Source of the DNA: Peptococcaceae bacterium BICA1-7
Lineage (GTDB): Bacteria; Bacillota; Desulfotomaculia; Desulfotomaculales; Desulfocucumaceae
Direction of reading: 5' to 3'
Assembly: GCA_000802095.1 (NCBI GenBank)
Contig: JUEB01000033.1
Span: 434,001 to 498,000 of the forward strand
Length of the DNA: 64,000 nt
Position numbers and translations under genes: made by a program. Positions 55,746-56,302 of this stretch are shown here, in pieces. The number at the start of each line of letters is the position of its first letter. Positions within the stretch are counted from its first letter, which is position 1. The notes below the pieces were generated by a model. The model was not told the DNA's origin. It saw only the letters and a program-made list of their open reading frames with translations, and did no database searches.

Positions 55746-55943
55746 TCAGACACCAACACGCAGACAATATAGTGTGTGGTATTTTCAGTGTTTTAAAAAG
55801 TGTTTTAAAAGAGGAATTAATACAGTAAAGCTAGAATAAACCAGTAAGAGACAAAAACAGGGCATTAATCCCCGGCCCGCCGGGTAATAAACCGGCAGGG
55901 GTCTATAATAAAAGGCCCTGAATAATTCAGGAGGGATAAAAAA

Positions 55944-56228
55944 GTGGCAAAGGTGCAGATTACCGACGATGCAAGGGATTATATCCTGAAGCAGACTGAC
56001 ACTATAACCGTGCAGATAGAAATGTGCAGGGGGTGAAGGGGCGTAACTTATGAGCCTGCCGTGTATGCAGGACAGCCCACACCACCTGAGGAATATGAGA
56101 GCGTAGTTGCCAACGGTGTCACGGTCTACCTTAAAAAGGACGCCCAGACCGCCCCTGATGGGGTAAATATCTCCATGACCGGAGAAGGCGTTTGGAAAAC
56201 CATGAAAATAGAGGGTCTGCAGCAATAA
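55944..56228 (+). CDS. Likely selenoprotein of the CC/Se (HesB-like) type, with in-frame TGA
   Basis: A GTG at 55944, eight bases after CAGGAGGGA, opens a frame to TAA at 56226-56228, with one TGA at 56034-56036. Reading it as selenocysteine gives 94 residues with C28-R-G-U31 (CxxU). The coding continues evenly after the TGA (VTYEPAVYAGQPTPPEEYE, then GVTVYLKKD, MTGEGVWKTM). Right after it, 56055-56059 pairs with 56067-56071 around a 7-base loop with G at its second position, as bacterial SECIS elements need. The start KVQITDDARDYILKQ is HesB-like. A terminator follows. The function is not known. A nonsense mutation is the alternative. Confidence 0.8.
56055..56071 (+). promoter_or_regulatory. 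Candidate bacterial SECIS hairpin
   Basis: CCTGC, loop CGTGTAT, GCAGG. It starts 18 bases after the TGA, and the loop begins 24 bases after it with G in its second position. This fits the established rule for bacterial selenocysteine insertion elements. The short stem is weaker than in formate dehydrogenase genes. Confidence 0.6.
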
Positions 56229-56247
56229 AAAATTACAGACGCTGTTT

Positions 56248-56274
56248 AAAAGCTGCCTTAATCGGCAGCTTTTA
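56248..56274 (+). terminator. Terminator of the selenoprotein gene
   Basis: AAAAGCTGCC pairs perfectly with GGCAGCTTTT around TTAATC. It begins 20 bases after the stop codon. Confidence 0.8.
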
Positions 56275-56302
56275 ATGTTGGCTCACCCGGGGAGGGATAT
56301 GG

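Follow-up and report, generated by a model that had tools for sequence, protein, structure and literature searches.

A frame of 94 codons in the genome of Peptococcaceae bacterium BICA1-7, interrupted only by one TGA, raises two questions: whether that codon is read as selenocysteine, and what the resulting protein might do. The frame occupies positions 55944 to 56228 of the forward strand in the 64,000-nucleotide stretch of DNA analysed here, called the window. It runs from a GTG start codon at 55944 to a TAA stop codon at 56226-56228, preceded by a ribosome binding site, GGAGGG, at 55930-55935 and followed by an intrinsic terminator at 56246-56275 (-18.6 kcal/mol, z -4.6). The sole in-frame TGA, at 56034-56036, is codon 31. 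A TGC codon at 56025-56027 places Cys28 three residues ahead of it, giving a CxxU motif in the peptide CRGUR, and no Cys occurs downstream of residue 31. A first-pass annotation had proposed a selenoprotein gene here, and all of these elements, together with a hairpin carrying G in the second loop position (56055-56071), lie where it had put them. A bare frame is cheap by chance, the window holding 48 single-TGA frames of at least 90 codons; a CxxU or UxxC motif occurs in one of the 48, namely 55944-56228 itself.

Family membership and the reading of the UGA codon

The readthrough product matches NCBIfam model NF041239, "CC/Se motif family (seleno)protein", over its whole length at 6e-28, scoring 96.8 bits against a curated cut-off of 40 bits; an HMM search of the 94-residue product was a check that the first-pass annotation had proposed. 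The window protein shares with the family both the full-length match and the Sec/Cys motif site, occupied here by TGA codon 31, and nothing excludes its membership. Table 1 of a 2026 review (PMC13188914) gives NF041239 as a predicted selenoprotein family, a hypothetical protein with CxxU and one Sec. Because the family is already on record as a selenoprotein family, the window gene is of a known kind. Moorella is not mentioned in the main texts of Zhang and Gladyshev 2008 or Peng 2016, both cited by the review. The family occurs in 45 of the 113 genomes of the order and is absent from 225 of the 299 genomes of a phylum-wide sample; no relatives were found among viral contigs or on plasmids.

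We regard it as very probable that this is a stand-alone selenoprotein gene of NF041239. Its malic-enzyme and Tex neighbours are common only to the closest relative, and the search for a conserved neighbour beyond that relative found none and gives no functional clue. An Rfam scan of the window returned no match at gathering scores. On the opposite strand, an ORF of 146 amino acids at 55785-56225, with no Pfam match, is a mechanical shadow of the selenoprotein gene. Homologues, too, repeatedly have antisense ORFs of this kind. Such an ORF could be annotated in place of the gene, which is one way for annotation to overlook it.

Among 79 aligned members from the same order, the site of codon 31 is TGA in 43, TGC or TGT in 31, and a codon for Thr, Trp, or Tyr in five; G037, counted among the 31 Cys rows, is probably misaligned, with its TGA three residues later. 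The in-frame UGA thus aligns with Sec or Cys of homologues, the pattern by which bacterial selenoproteins are recognized. TGA is carried by both genomes of the same genus and by the sole other genome of the same family that has the gene. Coding continues past the TGA, as had been claimed, with dN/dS downstream of it at 0.10 and 0.18 in comparisons with the two same-genus genomes. The first-pass annotation had named two findings that would count against selenocysteine, an ordinary residue at this site in homologues and a genome lacking selB or selC. The first is answered by TGA or a Cys codon in 74 of the 79, and the second by the host genome, in which selA is adjacent to selB, selC encodes a tRNA-Sec with anticodon TCA (UCA), and selD contains a TGA of its own, so that SelA, SelB, SelC, and SelD, expected where a bacterial selenoprotein is made, are all present. 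SelB scores above cut-off in 109 of the 113 genomes of the order. By parsimony on a tree of 73 members, built on few columns and with many forks unresolved, Sec status changed nine times, with at least five changes on well-supported branches.

Comparison with these homologues shows, at the level of sequence, that UGA 56034 encodes selenocysteine. It would be inserted by the host SelA, SelB, SelC, and SelD using the SECIS-type hairpin just downstream. It is highly improbable that suppression or reassignment makes the TGA a codon for a different amino acid, Trp or Cys: one homologue does have TGG (Trp) at the site, but 31 have Cys, the SECIS-type hairpin and the full Sec machinery are in place, and against reassignment 9 of the 29 large genes of the window use TGA as an ordinary stop. 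Still less credible is a nonsense mutation in an ordinary gene, or a pair of short genes, which would account for a frame interrupted by TGA but not for a TGA that 43 members share at this codon, both same-genus genomes included, for purifying selection past it, or for the presence of the Sec machinery.

Several related loci were seen in the course of this comparison. The same genome has a second, divergent family member (contig C14, 43448-43645, minus strand; locus L040) with an in-frame TGA in the peptide HCRGUGG. Two loci elsewhere, G096:C2:729986-730864 (L062) and G097:C155:1877-2589 (L060), each hold two convergent family genes, of which one has Sec at the site and the other Tyr. At G097:C28:5059-5334 (L055) the Sec site is TGG (Trp) and the SECIS-type hairpin is still intact, apparently a case of recent Sec loss.

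The hairpin downstream of the UGA

The hairpin at 56055-56071 has the stem CCTGC/GCAGG and the loop CGTGTAT; it lies 20 nt past the TGA, and its loop begins 23 nt past it. Limits given for bacterial SECIS elements are a loop of 3-9 nt, a stem of 4-16 bp, G within the first two positions of the loop, and a distance of 16-37 nt from the UGA (PMC13188914), and the window hairpin, with its 7-nt loop, 5 bp, G in second place, and 23 nt, falls within all of them. By itself it is not unusual (z -0.8), it is not better than a synonymous-codon null (z +0.44), and it is without one outer pair (G-A) that most relatives keep.

The significance of the hairpin comes from family-wide comparison, where TGA members preserve it better than Cys members do. 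A hairpin over codons 37-43 recurs in the family as GCCTGC-CGTGTAT-GCAGGC. Its overlap with conserved residues made codon use the test of choice. Glu37 is encoded by GAG in 28 TGA members and by GAA in one, as against 11 and 7 for Cys members, and among TGA members 23 use GCC for Ala39 and 21 use GCA for Ala42. Measured against the synonymous-codon null, the mean z is -0.87 for TGA members and +0.61 for Cys members. The inner five base pairs are fully paired in 35 of 41 TGA members versus 9 of 31 Cys members (p = 6e-9, a value computed over kin sequences, which are not independent). The innermost pair, 26:34, shows a double change from C-G to U-A in 10 sequences, and the covariation score was reached by none of 500 shuffles.

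Predicted fold and the partner cysteine

An AlphaFold2 model built from an 18-row alignment has pLDDT 90, and its leading PDB matches all belong to IscA, SufA, and their relatives (VIA Z 10.4 and 10.1, with rmsd 2.6 across 84-85 residues; best Foldseek E 9e-4). A second AlphaFold model, led by a Cys homologue, has pLDDT 87 and matches IscA at Z 9.1, versus 2.5 for the best unrelated fold, with Foldseek E 1.4e-4; the two models have most alignment rows in common and are not fully independent. Profile alignment scores 27.7 to IscA and 31.3 to HesB-type selenoproteins, where 100 shuffled profiles reach at most 17.9, and places Sec31 opposite IscA Cys35. In the model Sec31 sits at the turn that joins strands 20-30 and 33-42. 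PDB searches by sequence, with the single sequence and with a profile, gave chance matches only, so the link to IscA depends on the fold match and on profile-profile alignment. Both predicted models have the IscA fold, and in all likelihood the window protein does too, with Sec31 at the tip of a beta-hairpin in the place of IscA Cys35 and without the C-terminal CxC.

This IscA-type scaffold is nevertheless outside both PF01521 and TIGR01911 by their own thresholds. It scores 12.9 bits against Pfam Fe-S_biosyn (PF01521; E 0.13), whose cut-off is 26.3, and neither the window protein at E<=1 nor anything in the whole genome matches TIGR01911. The TIGR01911 HesB-like selenoproteins (UxGP) resemble the window protein in being small, in belonging to an IscA-type family, and in having Sec at the first IscA cysteine by profile alignment, but the window protein is without the UxGP motif, and HesB selenoproteins align to IscA at 1e-27 whereas the NF041239 family does so weakly. 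The first-pass label "CC/Se-type HesB-like" merges two families: the CC/Se part agrees with NF041239, and the HesB-like part finds no TIGR01911 match but is right as regards the predicted IscA-type fold. With IscA/SufA the protein shares a predicted fold over nearly its full length (Z 10.4) and the location of Sec31 on Cys35. It differs from them in falling below the Pfam cut-off and in lacking the C-terminal CxC pair, which holds the IscA cluster with or without the first Cys (PMC5471300); a Cys within the last 25 residues occurs in 10 of 79 members. Two IscA-fold proteins with other roles, DsrR (2k4z) and PdhI/YneR (9a4q), were matched at Z 9.0 and 8.3; they are not selenoproteins, and no sequence match between them and the window protein was found. 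PdhI inserts its residue Y31 into the active-site entrance of its target (PMC10090944).

The partner of the Sec is not fixed. In TGA members the partner Cys is at -3 in 14 (including the window protein), at +3 in 12, and at +2 in 10, one member being counted in both of the latter classes, and it is absent in 7; no partner Cys is nearby in 16 of the 31 Cys members. Since the site is at a turn between two strands, a partner on either of these would lie close to it. Because the partner shifts or is absent, a single chalcogen, and not the CxxU pair, is the constant feature of the family. One exposed selenolate at the loop of IscA Cys35 would give an accessory protein a group for redox chemistry or for binding chalcogen or metal, and in the window protein Cys28 could resolve the Sec31 selenolate as a selenylsulfide. 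We infer, tentatively, that the protein acts through one exposed selenolate at the loop and not as a classical Fe-S carrier of the A type.

A thiol-disulfide oxidoreductase of the CxxU kind, in line with the motif label of the review and with Cys28 at the -3 position, is an unlikely reading: the partner moves to +2 or +3, or is missing altogether, in other members of both the TGA and Cys classes, and the predicted fold is IscA-like and not thioredoxin-like. Less probable again is a reduced A-type Fe-S carrier replacing IscA. That role would suit the predicted fold and the lack of any PF01521 match in 10 of 13 genomes searched, the host among the 10, but the missing C-terminal CxC, the scarcity of C-terminal Cys in the family, and its absence from most of the phylum sample argue against it. 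As a separate observation, the three PF01521 matches among 12 relatives contain a TGA, and no PF01521 carrier was found in the host genome.

The putative Sec-Sec subfamily and a possible role of the family

The phylum-wide sample contains a distant NF041239 subfamily with two exactly adjacent in-frame TGAs (GUUN, TUUT, and similar), at 12 loci in 11 genomes (L141-L150, L154, and L128; in L141, for example, the gene is at about 1501-1794). Five of them, scanned against NCBIfam, match NF041239 at 6e-10 to 1e-14, one just under the cut-off, and for one of the five there is also a weakly suggestive match, at 0.005, to NF038090, IscA/HesB family protein. Every locus has a hairpin whose 4-nt loop begins 21 nt past the second TGA and 24 past the first, except that one locus with an extra codon has its loop at 24 and 27 nt. 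In 11 distinct rows, from one of which a codon was taken out by hand for register, all 77 cells pair, four of the seven pairs show double changes, and the covariation score was reached by none of 500 shuffles. In close comparisons, dN past the TGAs is far lower than dS; one distant pair was uninformative. The two adjacent UGA codons are putatively Sec-Sec, with one SECIS hairpin serving both. The only precedent in the literature searched is the algal PDI_e (PMC7539508), likewise with two adjacent Sec, which differs in being a eukaryotic protein disulfide isomerase with another SECIS type.

At eight Sec-Sec loci a closely related aldehyde:ferredoxin oxidoreductase is the nearest sizeable upstream gene in the same orientation, at a distance of a few hundred bases, and at a ninth the upstream oxidoreductase is divergent (L141-L148 and L154 in all). 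The Cys-type member L107 adjoins a third such enzyme (L107:2543-3925). This link belongs to the relatives, the window gene adjoining none; it suggests that the subfamily may serve tungsten/molybdenum enzymes in an accessory or chalcogen-transfer role. The most far-reaching reading, with a probability of roughly 0.45, is that the CC/Se family is an IscA-fold family in which the Cys35 position is a hot spot for chalcogens, evolving through Cys, Sec, Cys-Cys, Sec-Cys, and, in the distant subfamily, Sec-Sec, that this subfamily has such a role, and that the window protein, with its single Sec, belongs to one functional kind with it.

The gene is one more member of a recorded, functionally blank selenoprotein family. 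What is new relative to PMC13188914 is the predicted fold of that family and the variation of its partner Cys; the fold assignment provides a structural frame for the family and a testable position, IscA Cys35. The Sec-Sec side result may matter more than the window gene itself: if true, bacterial SelB can serve two successive UGA codons at two spacings.
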